A DNA stretch of 20,000 nt from Neocallimastix lanati (nom. inval.) (lineage: Eukaryota > Neocallimastigomycota > Neocallimastigomycetes > Neocallimastigales > Neocallimastigaceae), in the NCBI GenBank assembly GCA_016946835.1, contig JACVTC010000072.1, forward strand, positions 677,501 through 697,500, read 5' to 3'. Positions within the stretch are counted from its first letter, which is position 1; each line of letters begins with the position of its first letter. The translations under genes and the position numbers were made by a program. The notes beneath the pieces are model-generated. The model saw only the letters and a list, made by a program, of their open reading frames with translations, had not been told where the DNA came from and did no database searches. Shown one piece after another: positions 146-14,976 of this stretch.

Positions 146-428
146 AATTTTTTAAATAGTTTTTTTTTTTTTTTTTTAAGATATTCTTAAAATTTCAAAA
201 ATCGATCATTATTATTTGTTTTACACCAATTTTTACTATAAATATTAATTATTTAATTATAAAGTCAGGATTTACAAAAGATAAAGTCCGAAATCACTTT
301 ATATCATATTAATTATTAATCAAACTAAAATTTTTTATTAATATTAATTTTATAATATTAAACAATAAAAATATTTTTAACATAAGAAAATATTTATTTT
401 TTAAAGATATATTTAATATAAAATTAAA

Positions 429-473
429 ATTATATAATTTTCAAAGAAATAAAACAAATACATAATAAATAAA
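429..473 (+). promoter_or_regulatory. Conserved leader/core promoter of reductoisomerase copy 1
   Basis: An AT-rich, TATA-like segment (ATTATATAAT) is followed by TCAAAGAAATAAAACAAAT and an A-rich run into the ATG. The same block precedes every copy, at 3301-3347, 6179-6225 and 9089-9133, and stays nearly invariant even where the sequence further upstream of copy 4 differs. Copies 1 and 4 share ATTTTCAAAG; copies 2 and 3 share AACTTTCAAAG. It probably contains the transcription start and 5' leader. No transcription-factor site can be named. Confidence 0.45.
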
Positions 474-521
474 ATGGTTAAAACAATAAATTTTGGAGGT
501 GTTGATGAAACCGTTTTATGA
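474..521 (+). other. Native start of copy 1, broken by one extra T
   Basis: The ATG at 474 sits in the same context as the starts of copies 2-4 and the first 14 codons read the same. A run of four T at 514-517 replaces the three T of the other copies. The frame then hits TGA at 519-521, giving a 15-codon frame. If the extra base is real, this becomes an upstream open frame overlapping the ATG at 505. The lesion is in a homopolymer, so an assembly or read error is a serious alternative. Confidence 0.8.
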
Positions 522-1533
522 AAGATCAGATTTTCCTCAACAAAAACTTAATGAAATATTTAAGAATGATACTTTCGCTGTTATCGGTTATGGTACTCAA
601 GGTCGTAATCAATCTCGTAATTTAAGAGATAAAGGATTTAAAGTGGTCATTGGTCTTCGTAAAGGTCCTTCTTGGGATCTTGCTAAAGAAGATGGATGGA
701 TAGAAGGTGAAACTCTTTTCGAAATTACTGAAGCTTGTAAAAAGGGTACAATCATTATGTATCTTCTTTCTGATGCTGGTCAAAAGGCTGCATGGAATAG
801 TATTAAAGATTTAATTCATGGAAAAACTTTATATTTCTCTCATGGATTCTCTATTGTTTTCAAAGATAAAACAGGAGTAATTCCTCCAAATGATTGTGAT
901 GTTATCATGGTTGCTCCAAAGGGTTCAGGTACTACCGTTCGTTCTCTTTTCTTAGAAGGTCGTGGTATTAATTCATCAGTTGCCATTTTCCAAGATTGGT
1001 CTGGTAAAGCAGAAGAAAGAGCATATGCCACAGGTATTGCTATTGGATCAGGTTATCTTTATCCAACTACCTTTGAAAGAGAAACTTATTCAGATCTTAC
1101 AGGAGAACGTGGAACACTTATGGGATGTATTCAAGGTATTTTCAAAGCTCAATTTGAAGTTTTAATTTCAAATGGTCATACTCCTTCTGAAGCATTCAAT
1201 GAAACCGTTGAAGAAGCTACTCAATCTCTTTATCCTCTTATTGGCAAGAATGGGATGGATTGGATGTATAATAATTGTTCTACCACTGCTCGTCGTGGAG
1301 CCCTTGATTGGATGGATAAATTTTATTCTGCTACTAAACCAGTATTTGAAGAATTATATGAATCAGTTCGTAATGGTACAGAAGCTGAAAATACTTTAAT
1401 TGCTAATTCTAAACCAGATTATCGTGAAAATCTTTCTAAAGAACTTAAAGAACTTCGTGAATCACAATTATGGCAAACGGCAGTAACTGTTCGTTCACTT
1501 CGCCCTGAAAATCAAAAAATTGAAAATAATTAA
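505..1533 (+). CDS. ILV5: Ketol-acid reductoisomerase copy 1, altered N-terminus
   Basis: This is the same enzyme as the three copies downstream: NADPH-dependent reduction and isomerisation of acetohydroxy acids in isoleucine and valine synthesis. Because of the extra T at 514-517, the main frame can only be entered from the ATG at 505. That gives 342 residues in which the first 14 (through the conserved NFGG and ETV) are replaced by MKPF before YERSDF. The Rossmann loop, metal ligands and C-terminus are all kept, so a working protein is conceivable. The TTG at 493 is not needed as a start. Distinct residues are Gln in place of Glu (PQQ), Ala before VIGYG and Ile in the last segment. The 5' half shares many silent bases with copy 4; the 3' end and downstream spacer match copy 2. 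It is either a functional paralogue with an altered start, a very young pseudogene, or an intact gene with a sequencing error. Confidence 0.8.
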   Translation: MKPFYERSDFPQQKLNEIFKNDTFAVIGYGTQGRNQSRNLRDKGFKVVIGLRKGPSWDLAKEDGWIEGETLFEITEACKKGTIIMYLLSDAGQKAAWNSIKDLIHGKTLYFSHGFSIVFKDKTGVIPPNDCDVIMVAPKGSGTTVRSLFLEGRGINSSVAIFQDWSGKAEERAYATGIAIGSGYLYPTTFERETYSDLTGERGTLMGCIQGIFKAQFEVLISNGHTPSEAFNETVEEATQSLYPLIGKNGMDWMYNNCSTTARRGALDWMDKFYSATKPVFEELYESVRNGTEAENTLIANSKPDYRENLSKELKELRESQLWQTAVTVRSLRPENQKIENN

Positions 1534-3347
1534 ATTATATAAAATAATTATCCTTACAAAAAAAAATTATATATAATAATTATAATTTAATGAATATATT
1601 AAATAGAATTGAAATAATTTAAATAATACATAATATATGGATATAATATATAATAATAATATATTTTAAAATTTAATATAAAAACATTAATAAATACACT
1701 TTAATTATATTATTCTAATTAGTACATTTAAAAAATATATGTAAAATTCATAAAAATATTAAAAATTAATAAATAAAAATAAAAAAAAATTATAATATAA
1801 AAAAAAAAAAAATAAATATATATTAACAAATGATTTATAATTCTATTATTACTATTTTTTTTTTCAATTGGAAGTTTTATTGCTAAATTTTATTTTATTT
1901 TATTTTTTATTTTATTATTTTTTTTTTAAATATTTTTAATAGAGCCTTATCGTCAATTTTATTATCAATTTAATTGTTTATTTAATACTATAAATAATAC
2001 CTTTAATATTATTTTAAATTTAAATGAATGAATAACTGCTAGATAAAAAGAAATACTGACAAAAATTAAAATAAAATGTTAATTCTAATTATAATTTAAT
2101 TATGCCTTGATTCTTAAAATATATATATATTTTGGTTATTTTTTAATAAAAAATTGTTTAATGTTAAAATCATGCAATAAAATAAAAATAATAATAATGC
2201 TACTACTACTACTATTACTACTACTAATAATAATAATAACTAATTAAAAAATATAATATATAAATATAAATATATATTTAATATATAATCATAATTCTTA
2301 ATATAGAAAAAGTGTAATACAAAAAAAATTAATATGATTAAAATTATCAAAATAAAATAATAGTTAATTATTATTAATATATAAATTAATTTTTGTTTTC
2401 TTATATATTAACGATTTCGTTTAAAAAACATTTAAAAAAATTTTAAAGATTAATTATGAAATATAAAAAATTATTAATTAAAGAAATCGTTTTTTAAAAA
2501 ATAATTCCTTTTTATCATATTATTTGTATAATTATAATTAATTTAAAATTATATATATATATATATATACAATTTATTGGTTTATTTTTATTTGATTTTA
2601 TAAATAAGTATTTATTAGATCAATTTTAATATGTAATACATAAATAATATCAGTTATTTTAAATTTAAATGTTAGTTTTTGATTATTATGTATATTATGT
2701 TAAAATTAATGTTAATTAAATACAATATAATAAACTATTTTTTTTTTTTTATTATATAAAGTGTGTATATTTTATTATATTGTATAATATTGTATTTTTA
2801 TTTTATCTTAATAGTTACATAAAGTAAATTTTATTATAAATGCTAAAGAAATAAAGAAAATATTTTTATAAATTACAAAATTGTTAAGTATAATTTTTTT
2901 AAAAATAGATATATAAGGATTTATATTGTGTGGAATAGTTAAGATCAAATATTTTTGATTGTTTAAATTTATTTAGGATAAATTTATGTGGAATGGATAT
3001 ATAATTAAATTTTAATTTAAAAGATCAATATAAATGTTGTATATATATATATATATTATAATATAAATTAATATATTAAAATTTAAAAATTTTTAATTCA
3101 TTATTTTTTTATATATTTTTATTTTTTATATAAATATAAAGGAATTTTCTTTTATTTTTTATTTATTTACTTTTATTTCACATCAGTAACTAATCAAAAT
3201 AAAATTTTTATTAATATTAATTTTATAATATTAAACAATAAAAATATTTTTAATATAAGAAAATATTTATTTTTTAAAGATATATTTAATATAAAATTAA
3301 AATTATATAAACTTTCAAAGAAATAAAACAAATACATAATAAACAAA
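1534..3347. repeat. Spacer between copies 1 and 2 (spacer type X)
   Basis: About 1.8 kb of very AT-rich DNA; I find no credible gene on either strand. It is almost identical to 4407-6225. It contains a CTA/TAA trinucleotide run (about 2198-2240), TA runs (about 2555-2570 and 3042-3056) and a widely spaced inverted repeat, AACGATTTC at 2410-2418 against GAAATCGTT at 2483-2491. A segment around 2097-2180 (starting TTAATTATGCCTTGATTC) and one around 2928-2999 are also recognisable in the diverged third spacer, so they may be under constraint. The last 150 bases are the promoter region of copy 2. Confidence 0.85.
2928..2999 (+). promoter_or_regulatory. Conserved block with paired GTGGAAT, upstream of copy 2
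   Basis: Two GTGGAAT heptamers at 2930-2936 and 2988-2994, 58 bases apart, flank a segment with AAGATCAAATATTTTT and TTTAGGATAAAT. The block starts about 420 bases before the ATG of copy 2. It recurs at 5800-5871 and, despite divergence of the surrounding spacer, at 8666-8738. It could be an upstream activating region or a 3' element of the preceding gene. The role is inference. Confidence 0.35.
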
Positions 3348-4406
3348 ATGGTTAAAACAATAAATTTTGGAGGTGTTGATGAAACCGTTTATGAAAGATC
3401 AGACTTTCCTCAAGAAAAATTAAATGAAATATTTAAAAATGATACTTTCGTTGTTATCGGTTATGGTACTCAAGGTCGTAATCAATCTCGTAATTTAAGA
3501 GATAAAGGATTTAAAGTAGTCATTGGTCTTCGTAAGGGTCCTTCTTGGGATCTTGCTAAAGAAGATGGATGGATAGAAGGTGAAACTCTTTTCGAAATTA
3601 CTGAAGCTTGTAAAAAGGGTACAATCATTATGTATCTTCTTTCTGATGCTGGTCAAAAGGCTGCATGGAATAGTATTAAAGATTTAATTCATGGAAAAAC
3701 TTTATATTTCTCTCATGGATTCTCTATTGTTTTCAAAGATAAAACTGGAGTAATTCCTCCAAATGATTGTGATGTTATCATGGTTGCTCCAAAGGGTTCG
3801 GGTACTACCGTTCGTTCTCTTTTCTTAGAAGGTCGTGGTATTAATTCATCAGTTGCCATTTTCCAAGATTGGTCTGGTAAAGCTGAAGAAAGAGCATATG
3901 CCACAGGTATTGCTATTGGATCAGGTTATCTTTATCCAACTACTTTTGAAAGAGAAACTTATTCAGATCTTACAGGAGAACGTGGAACACTTATGGGATG
4001 TATTCAAGGTATTTTCAAAGCTCAATTTGAAGTTTTAATTTCAAATGGTCATACTCCTTCTGAAGCATTCAATGAAACCGTTGAAGAAGCTACTCAATCT
4101 CTTTATCCTCTTATTGGCAAGAATGGGATGGATTGGATGTATAATAATTGTTCTACCACTGCTCGTCGTGGAGCCCTTGATTGGATGGATAAATTTTATT
4201 CTGCTACTAAACCAGTATTTGAAGAATTATATGAATCAGTTCGTAATGGTACAGAAGCTGAAAATACTTTAATTGCTAATTCTAAACCAGATTATCGTGA
4301 AAATCTTTCTAAAGAATTGAAAGAACTTCGTGAATCACAATTATGGCAAACGGCAGTAACTGTTCGTTCACTTCGCCCTGAAAATCAAAAAAATGAAAAT
4401 AATTAA
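3348..4406 (+). CDS. ILV5: Ketol-acid reductoisomerase (acetohydroxyacid reductoisomerase), copy 2
   Basis: This 352-residue class I enzyme converts 2-acetolactate and 2-aceto-2-hydroxybutyrate to the dihydroxy acids, using NADPH and Mg2+, in valine, leucine and isoleucine synthesis. The sequence follows yeast Ilv5 from its mature start: INFGG at 5-9, ETVYER at 12-17, Rossmann loop GYGTQG at 38-43, RK at 62-63, catalytic Lys149 in APKGSG, metal ligands Asp207/Glu211 in SDLTGERG and Glu243/Glu247 in NETVEEA, substrate Ser269 in CSTTA, ending RPENQ plus a short Asn-rich tail. There is no mitochondrial presequence, so the enzyme is probably cytosolic. The gene has no intron. Codons (CGT for Arg, GGT, CTT) suit high expression and differ from THOC5 in the same window. 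The start is fixed by the shared leader and by alignment. The base pattern is mosaic: 5' part like copy 3, last codons and spacer like copy 1. Confidence 0.97.
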   Translation: MVKTINFGGVDETVYERSDFPQEKLNEIFKNDTFVVIGYGTQGRNQSRNLRDKGFKVVIGLRKGPSWDLAKEDGWIEGETLFEITEACKKGTIIMYLLSDAGQKAAWNSIKDLIHGKTLYFSHGFSIVFKDKTGVIPPNDCDVIMVAPKGSGTTVRSLFLEGRGINSSVAIFQDWSGKAEERAYATGIAIGSGYLYPTTFERETYSDLTGERGTLMGCIQGIFKAQFEVLISNGHTPSEAFNETVEEATQSLYPLIGKNGMDWMYNNCSTTARRGALDWMDKFYSATKPVFEELYESVRNGTEAENTLIANSKPDYRENLSKELKELRESQLWQTAVTVRSLRPENQKNENN

Positions 4407-6225
4407 ATTATATAAAATAATTATCCTTACAAAAAAAAATTATATATAATAATTATAATTTAATGAATATATTAAATAGAATTGAAATAATTTAAATAAT
4501 ACATAATATATGGATATAATATATAATAATAATATATTTTAAAATTTAATATAAAAACATTAATAAATACACTTTAATTATATTATTCTAATTAGTACAT
4601 TTAAAAAATATATGTAAAATTCATAAAAATATTAAAAATTAATAAATAAAAATAAAAAAAAATTATAATATAAAAAAAAAAAAATAAATATATATTAACA
4701 AATGATTTATAATTCTATTATTACTATTTTTTTTTTTCAATTGGAAGTTTTATTGCTAAATTTTATTTTATTTTATTTTTTATTTTATTATTTTTTTTTT
4801 AAATATTTTTAATAGAGCCTTATCGTCAATTTTATTATCAATTTAATTGTTTATTTAATACTATAAATAATACCTTTAATATTATTTTAAATTTAAATGA
4901 ATGAATAACTGCTAGATAAAAAGAAATACTGACAAAAATTAAAATAAAATGTTAATTCTAATTATAATTTAATTATGCCTTGATTCTTAAAATATATATA
5001 TATTTTGGTTATTTTTTAATAAAAAATTGTTTAATGTTAAAATCATGCAATAAAATAAAAATAATAATAATGCTACTACTACTACTATTACTACTACTAA
5101 TAATAATAATAACTAATTAAAAAATATAATATATAAATATAAATATATATTTAATATATAATCATAATTCTTAATATAGAAAAAGTGTAATACAAAAAAA
5201 ATTAATATGATTAAAATTATCAAAATAAAATAATAGTTAATTATTATTAATATATAAATTAATTTTTGTTTTCTTATATATTAACGATTTCGTTTAAAAA
5301 ACATTTAAAAAAATTTTAAAGATTAATTATGAAATATAAAAAATTATTAATTAAAGAAATCGTTTTTTAAAAAATAATTCCTTTTTATCATATTATTTGT
5401 ATAATTATAATTAATTTAAAATTATATATATATATATATATACAATTTATTGGTTTATTTTTATTTGATTTTATAAATAAGTATTTATTAGATCAATTTT
5501 AATATGTAATACATAAATAATATCAGTTATTTTAAATTTAAATGTTAGTTTTTGATTATTATGTATATTATGTTAAAATTAATGTTAATTAAATACAATA
5601 TAATAAACTATTTTTTTTTTTTATTATATAAAGTGTGTATATTTTATTATATTGTATAATATTGTATTTTTATTTTATCTTAATAGTTACATAAAGTAAA
5701 TTTTATTATAAATGCTAAAGAAATAAAGAAAATATTTTTATAAATTACAAAATTGTTAAGTATAATTTTTTTAAAAATAGATATATAAGGATTTATATTG
5801 TGTGGAATAGTTAAGATCAAATATTTTTGATTGTTTAAATTTATTTAGGATAAATTTATGTGGAATGGATATATAATTAAATTTTAAATTAAAAGATCAA
5901 TATAAATGTTGTATATATATATATATATATATATTATAATATAAATTAATATATTAAAATTTAAAAATTTTTAATTCATTATTTTTTTATATATTTTTAT
6001 TTTTTATATAAATATAAAGGAATTTTCTTTTATTTTTTATTTATTTACTTTTATTTCACATCAGTAACTAATCAAAATAAAATTTTTATTAATATTAATT
6101 TTATAATATTAAACAATAAAAATATTTTTAATATAAGAAAATATTTATTTTTTAAAGATATATTTAATATAAAATTAAAATTATATAAACTTTCAAAGAA
6201 ATAAAACAAATACATAATAAACAAA
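4407..6225. repeat. Spacer between copies 2 and 3 (second copy of spacer type X)
   Basis: Near-identical to 1534-3347. Differences I can see are lengths of homopolymers and of the TA run near 5914-5932, plus AATTTTAAATTAAAAG in place of AATTTTAATTTAAAAG near 5880. The CTA/TAA run lies near 5073-5112. The paired GTGGAAT heptamers lie at 5802-5808 and 5860-5866, and the TATGCCTTGATTC segment near 4974. No gene is seen. Such near identity in non-coding DNA shows that this unit was copied very recently. Confidence 0.85.
5800..5871 (+). promoter_or_regulatory. Conserved block with paired GTGGAAT, upstream of copy 3
   Basis: GTGGAAT at 5802-5808 and 5860-5866, 58 bases apart, identical in layout to the block before copy 2. 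On its own it shows only recent duplication; its value comes from comparison with the version before copy 4. Confidence 0.3.
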
Positions 6226-7284
6226 ATGGTTAAAACAATAAATTTTGGAGGTGTTGATGAAACCGTTTATGAAAGATCAGACTTTCCTCAAGAAAAATTA
6301 AATGAAATATTTAAAAATGATACTTTCGTTGTTATCGGTTATGGTACTCAAGGTCGTAATCAATCTCGTAATTTAAGAGATAAAGGATTTAAAGTAGTCA
6401 TTGGTCTTCGTAAGGGTCCTTCTTGGGATCTTGCTAAAGAAGATGGATGGATAGAAGGTGAATCTCTTTTCGAAATTACTGAAGCTTGTAAAAAGGGTAC
6501 AATCATTATGTATCTTCTTTCTGATGCTGGTCAAAAGGCTGCATGGAATAGTATTAAAGATTTAATTCATGGAAAAACTTTATATTTCTCTCATGGATTC
6601 TCTATTGTTTTCAAAGATAAAACTGGAGTAATTCCTCCAAATGATTGTGATGTTATCATGGTTGCTCCAAAGGGTTCAGGTACTACCGTTCGTTCTCTTT
6701 TCTTAGAAGGTCGTGGTATTAATTCATCAGTTGCAGTTTTCCAAGATTGGTCTGGTAAAGCAGAAGAAAGAGCATATGCCACAGGTATTGCTATTGGATC
6801 AGGTTATCTTTATCCAACTACTTTTGAAAGAGAAACTTATTCAGATCTTACAGGAGAACGTGGAACACTTATGGGATGTATTCAAGGTATTTTCAAAGCT
6901 CAATTTGAAGTTTTAATTTCAAATGGTCATACTCCTTCTGAAGCATTCAATGAAACCGTTGAAGAAGCTACTCAATCTCTTTATCCTCTTATTGGCAAGA
7001 ATGGGATGGATTGGATGTATAATAATTGTTCTACCACTGCTCGTCGTGGAGCCCTTGATTGGATGGATAAATTTTATTTGGCTACTAAACCAGTATTTGA
7101 AGAATTATATGAATCAGTTCGTAATGGTACAGAAGCTGAAAATACTTTAATTGCTAATTCTAAACCAGATTATCGTGAAAATCTTTCTAAAGAATTGAAA
7201 GAACTTCGTGAATCGCAATTATGGCAAACAGCAGTAACTGTTCGTTCACTTCGTCCTGAAAATCAAAAAGTTGAAAATAATTAA
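6226..7284 (+). CDS. ILV5: Ketol-acid reductoisomerase copy 3
   Basis: Intact 352-residue enzyme with the NADPH loop, catalytic Lys149, acidic metal ligands and CSTTA Ser all present as in copy 2. Residue differences from copy 2 are Ser for Thr80, Val for Ile171, Leu for Ser285 and Val for Asn349. Leu285 lies in the segment after ALDWMDKFY and is unique to this copy. Upstream DNA and the first part of the gene match copy 2 base for base or nearly so. The last codons (TCG CAA, ACA GCA, GTT GAA) and downstream DNA resemble copy 4. It therefore sits at the junction between the two spacer types of the array. Confidence 0.97.
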   Translation: MVKTINFGGVDETVYERSDFPQEKLNEIFKNDTFVVIGYGTQGRNQSRNLRDKGFKVVIGLRKGPSWDLAKEDGWIEGESLFEITEACKKGTIIMYLLSDAGQKAAWNSIKDLIHGKTLYFSHGFSIVFKDKTGVIPPNDCDVIMVAPKGSGTTVRSLFLEGRGINSSVAVFQDWSGKAEERAYATGIAIGSGYLYPTTFERETYSDLTGERGTLMGCIQGIFKAQFEVLISNGHTPSEAFNETVEEATQSLYPLIGKNGMDWMYNNCSTTARRGALDWMDKFYLATKPVFEELYESVRNGTEAENTLIANSKPDYRENLSKELKELRESQLWQTAVTVRSLRPENQKVENN

Positions 7285-7928
7285 ATTATATAAAATAAAT
7301 ATCTTTACAACAAAAAAAATTAATAATATAATTCTAATTTAATATATAAACTACTAAAATGAACATAATTTAAATAATTTAAATAATTAATACATAATAT
7401 ATAGAAATACTATATAAAAATATTTTTTTTTAAATTTTAATATAAAAATATTAATAAATTCTCTTTATTATTCTATTTATATTATTAATATTAACAATAC
7501 ATATATATGTAAAATTCATAACTAAATTAATGATTAATAAATAAAAATAAAAATAATTTAATAAAAAAATAAATATATTTTAAATGATGATTATTTTTTT
7601 TCTTTTTTTTTTTTTTTTTTTTTTTTTATATTAGAATTATATTTTATTTTATTTTATTTTTTTTTTTTTGAGCTTTATTGCCAATTTTATTATTATTATA
7701 ATCGTTTATTTAATAAGATAAATAATATTATTAATATTATTATTTTATAATTTAAATGAATGAATAATTGTTATAATATAAAGAAATACTACCAAAAAAT
7801 AAAATAAAATATCATTTTTTAATATATAATTTAATTATGCCTTGATTCTAAATATATATATATTTGGTTATCTTTTAATAAAGAACTGTTTAATGTTGAA
7901 ATCATACAATAATATTAATAATAATAAT

Positions 7929-7963
<35 letters not shown>

Positions 7964-9133
7964 AAATAAAAATAATAATAACAACTAATTAAAATATATA
8001 TATTTATATTTATTCATAATTTTTAATATAGAAAAAGTTTAAAAATAAAAAAATAATATAATTAAAATTATTAAAACAGTTAATTACTATTTATTAGTAT
8101 ATTAATTTTTGTTTTATTATATATTAAAGATTTCTCTTAAAAAAACATTTAAAAATTATAAAAAAAAAAAATTTAAACAATTAGTTATGAAATATAAAAA
8201 ATTATTAATTATTAATTAAAGAAATCGCCTTTTAAAAAGGAATTTCTTATTATCATTTAATATTTAAAATTATAATTAATTTTAAATTTTATATATATAT
8301 ATATATACAATTTATTGGTTTATTATTATTTGCTTTAATAAATAAACTTTTATTAGATCAATTTAAATATATAAAACAATAATAATATCTTTGATTTATT
8401 TAAATATAAATTTTCGCTTTTAATAATTATATATGTTTTGTTAAAATTAATTTGGATTAAATACAATATATAATAAACTATATTTATATATTATATATAT
8501 TATATATATTGTATTATATTGCATTATATTGTATTTTTATTGTATCTTTATAGTAAAAGAAAGTAAGTTTTATTATTAGCGATAAAGAAATAAAAAAATA
8601 TTTTTCTTTAATACAAAAATGTAAGGTATAATTTTTTTAAAAATAGATATATAAGAATTTATTTTGTGTGGAATAGTTTAAGATCAAATATTTTTTATTG
8701 TTTAAATTTTTTTAGGATAAATATATGTGGAATGGATATAAATTAATTTTAATTTAAAAGATCAATATAAATATTATATATATCTATATATTATACTATA
8801 AATTAATATATTAAAATTTAAAAAATTTAACTCTTTTTTTTTTTTTATATTTTTATTTTAATATAAATAAAGAAATTTTCATTCTTTTTTTTTTTTTTTT
8901 TTTTTTTTATTATTTCTTTAATTCTATATCATATCAATTATTAATCAAACTAAAATTTCTTAATAATATTAATTTTATAATATTAGTCAATAAAAATATC
9001 TATTATATAAATAATTATTGATAAAAATTATTTATTGAATATTTTAAAAATAAAATAAATTTAATTAAAATTAAAATTTTAGATTAAAATTATATAATTT
9101 TCAAAGAAATAAAACAAATACATAATAAACAAA
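7285..9133. repeat. Spacer between copies 3 and 4 (diverged spacer type Y)
   Basis: It has the same order of elements as the other spacers but many substitutions and indels. It holds a long T tract (about 7603-7627), a TAA/AAT microsatellite (about 7912-7983) in place of the CTA run, the TATGCCTTGATTC segment near 7837, TA runs near 8290-8306, and T tracts near 8832-8846 and 8886-8908. The inverted repeat near 2410 is only partly kept (GATTTCT near 8129 and GAAATC near 8221). No gene is visible. It is the older spacer, useful as a built-in comparison for what is conserved. Confidence 0.8.
8666..8738 (+). promoter_or_regulatory. Conserved block with paired GTGGAAT, upstream of copy 4
   Basis: GTGGAAT at 8668-8674 and 8727-8733, 59 bases apart, with AAGATCAAATATTTTT and TTTAGGATAAAT between them. 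It has stayed close to the other two copies within a spacer that has otherwise drifted. No such block is found before copy 1, whose homologous upstream DNA is only about 170 bases long. Confidence 0.4.
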
Positions 9134-10192
9134 ATGGTTAAAACTATAAATTTTGGAGGTGTTGATGAAACCGTTTATGAAAGGTCAGATTTTCCTCAAC
9201 AAAAATTAAATGAAATATTTAAGAATGATACTTTCGTTGTTATCGGTTATGGTACTCAAGGTCGTAATCAATCTCGTAATTTAAGAGATAAAGGATTTAA
9301 AGTGGTCATTGGTCTTCGTAAAGGTCCTTCTTGGGATCTTGCTAAAGAAGATGGATGGATAGAAGGTGAAACTCTTTTCGAAATTACTGAAGCTTGTAAA
9401 AAGGGTACAATCATTATGTATCTTCTTTCTGATGCTGGTCAAAAGGCTGCATGGAATAGTATTAAAGATTTAATTCATGGAAAAACTTTATATTTCTCTC
9501 ATGGATTCTCTATCGTTTTCAAAGATAAAACTGGAGTAATTCCTCCAAATGATTGTGATGTTATCATGGTTGCTCCAAAGGGTTCAGGTACTACCGTTCG
9601 TTCTCTTTTCTTAGAAGGACGTGGTATTAATTCATCGGTTGCAGTTTTCCAAGATTGGTCTGGTAAAGCAGAAGAAAGAGCATATGCCACAGGTATTGCT
9701 ATTGGATCAGGTTATCTTTATCCAACTACCTTTGAAAGAGAAACTTATTCAGATCTTACAGGAGAACGTGGAACACTTATGGGATGTATTCAAGGTATTT
9801 TCAAAGCTCAATTTGAAGTTTTAATTTCAAATGGTCATACTCCTTCTGAAGCATTCAATGAAACCGTTGAAGAAGCTACTCAATCTCTTTATCCTCTTAT
9901 TGGCAAGAATGGGATGGATTGGATGTATAATAATTGTTCTACCACTGCTCGTCGTGGAGCCCTTGATTGGATGGATAAATTTTATTCTGCTACTAAACCA
10001 GTATTTGAAGAATTATATGAATCAGTTCGTAATGGTACAGAAGCTGAAAATACTTTAATTGCTAATTCTAAACCAGATTATCGTGAAAATCTCTCTAAAG
10101 AACTTAAAGAACTTCGTGAATCGCAATTATGGCAAACAGCTGTAACTGTTCGTTCACTTCGCCCTGAAAATCAAAAAGTTGAAAATAATTAA
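9134..10192 (+). CDS. ILV5: Ketol-acid reductoisomerase copy 4
   Basis: Intact 352-residue enzyme with every catalytic and cofactor-binding feature listed for copy 2. It differs from copy 2 in Gln for Glu23, Val for Ile171 and Val for Asn349. It has the most private silent changes (for example ACT at codon 4, AGG at codon 17, GGA-CGT in EGRG, CTC near the end), as expected for the oldest lineage in the array. Many 5' bases are shared with copy 1 (CAA for codon 23, AAG, GTG, AAA, ACC). The 46-base leader before the ATG is conserved but sequence further upstream differs from copies 1-3. Downstream DNA is the incomplete last spacer. Confidence 0.97.
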   Translation: MVKTINFGGVDETVYERSDFPQQKLNEIFKNDTFVVIGYGTQGRNQSRNLRDKGFKVVIGLRKGPSWDLAKEDGWIEGETLFEITEACKKGTIIMYLLSDAGQKAAWNSIKDLIHGKTLYFSHGFSIVFKDKTGVIPPNDCDVIMVAPKGSGTTVRSLFLEGRGINSSVAVFQDWSGKAEERAYATGIAIGSGYLYPTTFERETYSDLTGERGTLMGCIQGIFKAQFEVLISNGHTPSEAFNETVEEATQSLYPLIGKNGMDWMYNNCSTTARRGALDWMDKFYSATKPVFEELYESVRNGTEAENTLIANSKPDYRENLSKELKELRESQLWQTAVTVRSLRPENQKVENN

Positions 10193-10943
10193 TTTATAAA
10201 AAATAAATATCTTAATAACAAAATAAAAATAAAGTAATAAAAATAATAATTTAATGAATAAATTACTAAATAAACATAATTTAAATAATTTAAATAATTA
10301 ATACAAAATATATTGAAATACAATATAAAGATATAATATTTTAAATTTTAATATAAAAATATTAATAAATATACTTTTATTTATACTATTCATATTATTA
10401 ATATTAACAAGATATATATGTAAAATTCATAAAATTATTAAAAATTAATAAATAAAAAAATAATATAATAAAATATATATATATATACATATATTAGATA
10501 ATCATATTAATAATTTTTGTTGTTAATGTTTATTTTATTTTATTTATTATTTTTTTTTTTTAAATTATAATTTTTGTTATTTTTTTTTTTTTTTTTATTG
10601 AAAATTTGTTATTATTTTAATTTTTTATTTAATAAGATAAATAATAATTTTTGTTTATTATAATTTCAGAATTTAAATAAATGAATAATGTTATAATATA
10701 AAGAAATACTAACAAAATTTAAAATAAAATATTAACATTAATAATGTAATTTAATTATACTTAATTCATAATTAAAATAAATAATTAATTAAATAATAAA
10801 AATCATTTTGGAAATAAGTAAATCTTTAAATATTTTATTATAAAATAATTTTAAATAAATAAATAAATAATAAATAATAAATAATAAATAATAAATAATA
10901 AATAATAAATAATAGATAATGAATAATAAATACTAAATAATAT
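10193..10943. repeat. Right edge of the array: partial spacer and a 7-base repeat
   Basis: The first 570 bases are related to the spacer after copy 3: matching islands include TTTAATAAGATAAATAAT and TATAAAGAAATACTA near 10700. Similarity is lost near 10770. From about 10857 to 10915 there is a tandem AATAAAT heptamer run (roughly seven units), then degenerate copies. No gene is seen. The array ends here because the paired GTGGAAT block and the next promoter are absent. Confidence 0.7.
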
Positions 10944-11528
10944 TTAATTATTAAAGTTCTTTAGAAACACAATATATAAAAGGGATGCAAAAACTAAAGC
11001 TAAAACTAATCCCATTTAGAAAAAATCCTTCAATTCAAGTATAACCCTGTATTAACTTAGTGTCTCTCTACTTCTCGTTCTTTCTTTCTTTGTTATGATC
11101 CAAATAGAGGTGCATAATACGAAACTTGCCCCAATTACTAGAGCAGAAAATAACATAGGTTTATAAGGGGGATAGGAATACAAATATGAGGATTCTTTAA
11201 GAAAAAAAAATTTTTATGGGGGAAAGTGCCCTTCTCTAACTTTATTTATTCATTCTCTTTATGATCGGTTTTCAGCTTTAAATCATTTGAAGAAGAGTAC
11301 ACCTAAGTAGGCATAGCAAATTCGTTTTAGATGACTCTTGTCTTGAAAGATAAAAAAAGGTAGGGTTACACGACTATCACGAAATCTTTGAAACTTTATG
11401 CCCCCCCTCGTACTATTAAACTAGCACATTTATTGAAATCAAATTTGTATTTTCATTATTTGTAACCCATCTTCTAGCAAACTTTAACAATTTCTTAAAA
11501 TGAAAAAAAAAAAATTTTTTTTTTTTTT

Positions 11529-12426: not shown

Positions 12427-12742
12427 TTATTATTTAATAATATAATTATTATTAAATTTACAAAAAAATATACAAATATGTTGTTATACATATTTTATAT
12501 TAACAATGCTTAATAAATAAATATATATACAAATATTTTAATTTTTATATTACTTAAGATCTATTTTAATATTTTTTTTGTTCAATATTTTAATATGATT
12601 TACTTTGTAAACCTGAATCACTGATTCTATTATTAATATTAATGTTATTAATCAAAAATATAACCTTTTTTTATTACTATTATTATTATTATTAATGTAT
12701 TAATTATTATTGATTTATTAATTATTGATTATTAATTATTAA
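12281..12742. other. AT-rich intergenic DNA without visible gene
   Basis: Contains a TA run near 12406-12426, a TTA/ATT microsatellite near 12674-12695 and an ATTAATTATTGATT-rich stretch just before the long minisatellite. I see no open frame of coding character on either strand. Confidence 0.6.
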
Positions 12743-12845
12743 TTTGTTATATATAATCTTTTTATAATAATAATAATAATAATTTGATATATATAATCTT
12801 TTTATAATAATAATAATAATAATAATTTGTTATATATAATCTTTT

Positions 12846-12881
<36 letters not shown>

Positions 12882-13222
12882 TTGTTATATATAATCTTTT
12901 TATAATAATAATAATAATAATAATAATTTGTTATATATAATCTTTTTATAATAATAATAATAATAATAATTTGTTATATATAATCTTTTTATAATAATAA
13001 TAATAATAATAATTTGTTATATATAATCTTTTTATAATAATAATAATAATAATTTATATAATCTTGTTATATATAATAATATTTTTTTATAATAATAATA
13101 ATAATAATAATTTGTTATATATAATCTTTTTATAATAATAATAATAATAATAATTTGTTATATATAATCTTTTTATAATAATAATAATAATAATAATAAT
13201 AATTTGTTATATATAATCTTTT

Positions 13223-13258
<36 letters not shown>

Positions 13259-14747: not shown

Positions 14748-14976
14748 TATGATTTTAAATGATTGGAATTCTGATGCTCGTGGTCAATAGAGATATATGT
14801 AGGAACGTTAGGAATGCATCTCCGGGCAGTGTGTAACGACGATTGAGAGCGGCGAAGCTGTTACAGTATGCCAATAACTCATCACCTTACAGTTAATTAA
14901 TAACTGTATGGCCATATGGGAGATGGGTACCCATATGTGCAAGTCTATGTTTTTTTTTTTTATGATTTTAAATGAT
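14748..14976. mobile_element. Probable inserted element flanked by 16-bp target-site duplication
   Basis: The 16-mer TATGATTTTAAATGAT occurs at 14748-14763 and again, perfectly, at 14961-14976. The 197 bases between the two copies are compositionally foreign: by hand count about 44% G+C up to the T tract, against flanks that are almost all A/T. The insert ends in 11 T (14950-14960). A long perfect direct repeat hugging a foreign insert is the signature of target-site duplication, and this length suits retroposition driven by a LINE-type endonuclease. A retroposed RNA gene or a SINE would fit. No other copy is present in this window, and no terminal inverted repeats are seen, which argues against a DNA transposon. 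Confidence 0.6.
14764..14960 (+). ncRNA. Candidate structured RNA inside the insert, T-tract terminated
   Basis: Four local hairpins are visible by eye. (1) GAGATATAT 14790-14798 with ATGCATCTC 14814-14822, one mismatch. (2) GGCA/TGCC then TGTAAC/GTTACA, arms 14825-14837 and 14860-14872, with a symmetric 3+3 internal loop and an inner AGC/GCT stem closing GGCGAA. (3) TACAGTTA 14888-14895 with TAACTGTA 14901-14908, perfect, 5-base loop. (4) CATATGGG 14913-14920 with CCCATATG 14930-14937, perfect, 9-base loop. The T tract that follows would act as an RNA polymerase III terminator on the plus strand. I could not match it to U1-U6, 5S, SRP, RNase P/MRP, U3 or a tRNA. No long open frame is present. 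No clear internal B box is seen, so transcription by Pol III is unproven. Confidence 0.45.

Follow-up and report, generated by a model that had tools for sequence, protein, structure and literature searches.

A 5′-truncated insert assigned to a tRNA-derived, T-tailed SINE family

Described SINEs, the host and the family at this locus

The plant p-SINEs and Au-like SINEs are tRNA-derived, and the hosts of the fungal SINEs MgSINE, Foxy, AfuSINE2 and SINE2-1_BG are ascomycetes. The accessible part of PMC3747384 describes p-SINEs and Au-like SINEs as ending in poly(T), and as possibly mobilised by unidentified LINEs that recognise poly(U); poly T is likewise named among SINE tails in the accessible part of PMC8825457. 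For the fungal elements, the accessible part of PMC5063351 gives a length of 472 bp and ca. 100 copies for MgSINE and ca. 160 copies for Foxy, and reports that AfuSINE2-1a ends in ACT repeats and has a 3′ sequence in common with a Tad LINE.

The 197-nt insert considered here lies in a 20,000-nucleotide stretch of DNA, hereafter the window. It is very probably part of a tRNA-derived, T-tailed SINE, a non-autonomous retrotransposon, of which it represents a 5′-truncated and promoterless copy. The family appears to be a new one of a known kind. The plant p-SINEs and Au-like SINEs also end in T tracts (PMC3747384, accessible part), a likeness of description across kingdoms. With MgSINE, Foxy, AfuSINE2 and SINE2-1_BG the family has in common a tRNA-related head and a similar size or copy number (PMC5063351, accessible part), whereas its T tail differs from the ACT repeats of AfuSINE2-1a; here too the likeness is one of description.

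The genome searched is one 199-Mb assembly of 762 contigs that contains the window. All 150 scored candidates for PF02013, which we take to be the fungal dockerin domain (Pfam name CBM_10) and a mark of gut fungi, match in this genome (1440 candidates at first look), and none was found in 14 prokaryote control genomes. Dockerin-domain expansion is known from anaerobic gut fungi, and the expansion seen here fits such a host and agrees with the first-pass annotation, which had guessed at Neocallimastigomycota. Searches of viral contigs with two patterns and of prokaryote genomes with one pattern returned no match, in collections from which records near this genome may be excluded. In the open-access literature we found no description of a SINE in Neocallimastigomycota; most subscription papers and the repeat databases lie outside that scope, and the negative is therefore no proof of an undescribed family. 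The accessible part of PMC8778642, which treats Neocallimastigomycota, retrotransposons, repeats and the genome, contains no SINE, and that of PMC6416283 names no gut fungus.

The family is of interest for its host lineage and because its tail is of T and its duplications are T-led. A young SINE in an anaerobic gut fungus would mean that fungal SINEs also occur in a deep branch of the fungi whose genomes are very rich in A and T. It would further provide an example of a T-tailed SINE that was active not long ago and whose T-led duplications fit priming on poly(U). For annotation, some 400 GC-richer, hairpin-bearing islands are not to be mistaken for RNA genes.

The window copy and the full-length element

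The insert occupies positions 14764-14960, between two exact copies of TATGATTTTAAATGAT at 14748-14763 and 14961-14976, as the first-pass annotation had placed them. It is GC-richer than its surroundings, as also claimed there, at 41.1% G+C against 14.0% in flanks of ~1 kb on each side, a value somewhat below the ~44% counted by hand. The two perfect 8-bp stems and the terminal T tract reported earlier are likewise present. Against the emphasis on a hairpin-rich insert, it folds no better than its shuffles (z 0.12; 108 of 200 shuffles as good), and its hairpins are unexceptional. Exact 16-mer pairs 150-300 nt apart are frequent in this window, numbering 1984, of which 481 are not simple by our own measure; the ten listed all lie near 12.7-13.2 kb. 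Because such pairs are common in a window of low complexity, the 16-mers alone do not prove an insertion, and with the fold being ordinary as well, the decisive evidence is comparative and comes from the other copies. The stretch at ~12740-13250 consists of AT-rich repeats in which TAATTTGTTATATATA recurs several times, with a G+C content of ~4-8%.

Read on the forward strand, the window copy opens with the left target-site duplication (14748..14763), which is followed at the 5′ truncation junction by a 5-nt filler, TGGAA (14764..14768). The filler belongs to neither the duplication nor the element: it is absent from the family consensus at this point, and the other copies match from 14769. 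From there to 14949 runs the 3′ part of the SINE, equivalent to consensus 262-442 and 98.9% identical to it over 182 nt, with 2 differences. These are a T>A change at consensus 280 (14787) and an A>T change at consensus 354 (14861). Both are common to L056 and L071 and are found also in L093, and they therefore serve as diagnostic bases that place the window copy in an older subfamily. One perfect 8-bp hairpin lies in the body at 14888..14908, where TACAGTTA (14888-14895) faces TAACTGTA (14901-14908), and is paired in the minimum-energy folds. The other adjoins the 3′ end at 14913..14937, where CATATGGG (14913-14920) faces CCCATATG (14930-14937), and this pairing is not the one adopted in the minimum-energy fold of the insert. 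The element closes with GTCTATG (14943..14949), containing a GTCTA word that also stands before the tail at A-tailed, LINE-type 3′ ends of the same genome, and then with a tail of 11 T (14950..14960); it is ambiguous where this tail gives way to the right duplication (14961..14976, same as the left), which itself starts with T. The window copy is thus an ordinary, 5′-truncated member of the older subfamily that retains the last 181 nt and the tail; as it lacks the head, it has no promoter of its own.

Copies of the insert are numerous in the genome. With 14748-14976 as a DNA query, 544 candidates were found at first look, and all 40 that were scored match; the 39 copies other than the window's have 97-99% identity and match from query position 22 on. 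A core 22-mer is found at 407 places with up to 3 mismatches; the figure is 364 for a 3′ 24-mer and 243 for a 28-mer from the head. Each control (reversed in the case of the core) has 0 places, and these pattern counts miss divergent copies. The full length was sought in ~9.9-kb stretches upstream of 20 copies; the core is present in all but L044, whose stretch is too short, which leaves 19 readable stretches. The element starts at the same base in 17 of them, preceded by differing flanks; of the two exceptions, L042 begins ~16 nt later and L047 is interrupted. Counted as far as the first T of its tail, the full element measures 443 nt. It starts with GCCATGTTGGTCCAGTCGGTTAGGAC, passes through GGTTCGAATCC and ..GGCATGGCACCA, and ends in ..GTGCAAGTCTATG followed by T. 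Its longest stop-to-stop frame, in the antisense direction, has 71 codons. The copies are therefore many, dispersed, short and non-coding, as expected of a SINE (407 places; 443 nt; no frame above 71 codons). The proposal of a new SINE made from the insert is supported in this form, although the insert is only the 3′ 181 nt and tail of a 443-nt element, and the tRNA-like head sits in the 5′ part that is missing from the window.

Many tRNA-derived SINEs have heads that end in CCA, and the head of this element does so too. Under permissive settings the head in L031 scores 38.0 bits against the Rfam tRNA model, whose gathering score is 29; default Rfam filters gave no match in seven sources, including the full copy L012. 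ARAGORN calls a tRNA in 16 of 17 heads, L042 being the miss and L033 contributing two copies to the set. It reads no anticodon, and the anticodon arm is ~2 nt short. Within this tRNA-related 5′ head we read by eye, against the known motifs, what are presumably the A and B boxes. The parent tRNA gene was sought through words of the D arm and T arm: one search had no match and the other had 227 places, and among the matches listed (100) all have the spacing of the SINE, with no ordinary tRNA gene. A search with RF00005, in which 63 of 9278 candidates were scored, returned 57 matches with an identical score of 69.8 bits. On contig C555, 31 of these 57 lie on one strand at ~170-400 kb, partly ~540 bp apart, and further tRNA matches are on C78, C93 and other contigs. 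One 69.8-bit match and two lower-scoring ones from other contigs read as tRNA-Arg(TCT), and the whole looks like an amplified tRNA array.

Duplications, age and rival readings

We aligned 61 copies, comprising the window copy, 20 from the top of the match list and 40 in contig order. The 40 come from exact core matches, drawn among the matches listed (100 of 407) with places already fetched skipped. Both sources are biased towards close copies and by construction leave out any copy truncated past the core. Duplications were scored in 58 of the 61; L056, L071 and L086 were left out for matches that stop short of the last position. A first score that required exact repeats of at least 10 nt and T-only tails found a duplication in 39 of the 58, against 2.2% of 11,425 shuffled left-right pairings. 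The tail-tolerant score, adopted after misses with tails such as TTTTGTT, allows T/G tails and one mismatch; it finds a duplication in 49 of the 58 copies, compared with 10 of 1143 shuffled pairings. Copies L024 and L025 count as two in these totals and have the same duplication and flank, so that they are likely one insertion on two contigs, and the duplication of L084, one of the 49, is doubtful because it rests on a poly(A) flank. The nine copies with no duplication by the tail-tolerant score are L055, L057, L064, L066, L069, L073, L074, L077 and L087. The duplications are 14-17 nt long in 42 of the 49, and the tail that precedes them, sometimes interspersed with G, varies from 0 to 38 nt. 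At their start the mean T run is 2.96, compared with 0.77 T before a non-T base in the flanks. Target-site duplications of variable length and a simple 3′ tail of variable length, both typical of SINEs, are therefore found together (49/58; T tail 0-38 nt). The first-pass annotation had held that many copies with different flanking duplications would show a SINE, and this is what the 407 core places and the 49 of 58 copies with a duplication provide. Of the 40 copies sampled in contig order, 22 begin at position 1 and the other 18 are 5′-truncated, with recurrent truncation starts at 19, 119/120 and 173/174.

The 61 copies differ from their consensus by 0.58% on average (median 0.45%), and 14 of them are identical to it over their own length; the family has therefore moved recently. 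Older relatives (L105 to L111) have 68-80% identity over the aligned parts. One of them, L111, comprises head, body and a 3′ part that can still be recognised; ATTAAGAATTTA is repeated in its flanks. Another old copy, L106 (C446:759890-760380), has a long T run in mid-body and then continues into unrelated sequence, as if it had ended there. L107 and L108 (C112 and C39) are old copies with practically identical flanks and are probably a segmental duplication. At one site in the body, all six non-duplicate old copies aligned have TTTT where the young consensus has TTT. As an idea, and not a result, loss of this weak internal terminator may have set off the young burst.

Of the other readings, that of a 3′-UTR fragment of a 5′-truncated LINE, with no SINE involved, has points in its favour: 5′ truncation, duplications and a 3′ tail are all LINE-like, and the GTCTA before the tail is common to LINE-type ends. 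It is nevertheless very unlikely, because full-length copies with their own duplications end after 443 nt at a tRNA-like head, with no reverse transcriptase frame, and because the LINE-type 3′ ends observed in this genome have A tails, mostly AATAAA, and a different sequence. As to LINE membership itself, the full-length copies encode no reverse transcriptase in their 443 nt, the longest frame being of 71 codons.

The first-pass annotation also considered a retroposed RNA gene, that is, a structured RNA with one functional parent. Hairpins are present, the insert is GC-rich compared with its flanks, and the young family and its old relatives show weak conservation of a body hairpin. This origin is highly improbable given 407 dispersed places with many independent duplications and a fold of ordinary energy. 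Rfam places no family in the insert, as the first-pass comparison with common RNA families had suggested: the window has no match above a gathering score, the sole permissive match reaching 14.9 bits against 90, and in a full copy the tRNA head alone rises above the cut-off.

A DNA transposon or other short cut-and-paste element would also be a short, non-coding, dispersed repeat with flanking duplications. Here the duplications have no fixed length, the element closes in a homopolymer tail that differs from copy to copy, and many copies are 5′-truncated. There are no terminal inverted repeats: when the first 40 nt are compared with the last 40 in reverse complement, the longest word in common has 4 nt. 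We give this reading hardly any credence. Lastly, an ordinary GC-richer stretch might lie between local low-complexity repeats that only look like a target-site duplication, 16-mer pairs at such spacing being common in the window, but this is scarcely credible when the insert recurs elsewhere with unrelated flanks and 49 of the 58 scored copies have a duplication of their own.

Mechanism, partner LINE and RNA structure

Target-primed reverse transcription by LINE machinery is recognised by 5′ truncation, duplications of 14-17 nt and a tail of variable length, and Pol III transcripts end in U runs. For the SINE reading, the duplications led by T imply that the nicked strand ended in A residues able to pair with a 3′ U run. 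T tail and T-led duplications together therefore suggest priming on poly(U), and since Pol III transcripts end in U runs, we infer a second role for the terminator, that of primer-binding tail. Full-length copies would be transcribed by RNA polymerase III from the A and B boxes of the head, and the genomic T tract would give the transcript a terminal U run. The endonuclease and reverse transcriptase encoded by a LINE would nick A/T-rich DNA, a 3′ end in A residues would pair with the U run and prime cDNA synthesis, and slippage would set the length of the tail. At the window copy, reverse transcription would have proceeded only ~180 nt in from the 3′ end, 5 extra bases being added when the break was joined. 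A Pol III unit is expected to contain no internal TTTT. The consensus has none before the tail, which is also true of 17% of shuffles and so not significant.

LINE-like frames exist in the same genome. For PF14529, 150 of 485 candidates were scored and at least 78 places match; a frame in L039 contains RVT_1. Three A-tailed ends downstream of LINE-like frames (L095, L097, L098) and a similar end, L048, have GTCT directly before the tail, and so GTCTA, most with AATAAA upstream; from their position and mutual likeness they appear to be LINE ends, with no frame read through to them. The LINE in L039 ends in a variant, CTGTCTAAT followed by an A run. These A-tailed ends resemble the SINE in GTCTA and differ from it in their A tails and, mostly, in AATAAA. 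Directly before A runs of at least 12, GTCT occurs in 5 of 321 cases (224,724 bases) where 0.30 would be expected; the sharing of GTCTA, a short word picked out in hindsight, is a lead only. Two tail patterns were used to look for a LINE ending in the same 3′ sequence: the 24-mer, with its 364 places and control of 0, and a 17-mer ending in T8, with 156 places and a control of 2. Six places of the T8 17-mer that are absent from the exact-match list of the 24-mer search are all SINE copies, and no 3′ sharing between a LINE of this genome and the SINE was found beyond the short GTCTA word at the tail. One tentative and rather doubtful proposal is that the SINE uses the U run of its Pol III terminator as the primer-binding tail together with LINE machinery that recognises GTCTA and not the homopolymer, so that A-tailed LINEs and the T-tailed SINE would be moved by the same enzyme.

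The full element folds slightly better than shuffles (z -1.21; 13 of 100 as good). We aligned the young consensus with six old relatives (7 sequences, L108 being dropped as a near-copy of L107). For the hairpin after the head, alifold gives -7.8 against a column-shuffle mean of -2.6, and 2 of 200 shuffles are as low, in shuffles that do not keep dinucleotides. Pairs 13-84, 19-78 and 21-76 change on both sides, but 2 of the 7 sequences break two of these three, and breaks occur at several further pairs. Taken together, the alignment lends weak support to a body hairpin conserved from the old relatives to the young family. One old relative, L105 (C46:1200520-1201050), has a long, nearly perfect body hairpin (AGCACTGAGATTTTCTGT .. 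ACAGAAAATCTCAGTGCT), and other copies have shorter, imperfect ones.

Elsewhere in the window, positions 298-10946 hold four tandem copies of a ketol-acid reductoisomerase gene, in repeat units of ~2.9 kb that align at 87-91%. In the one copy tested (352 aa), both KARI_N and KARI_C were found; the listed frame of the first copy begins with TTG and has a different N-terminus.
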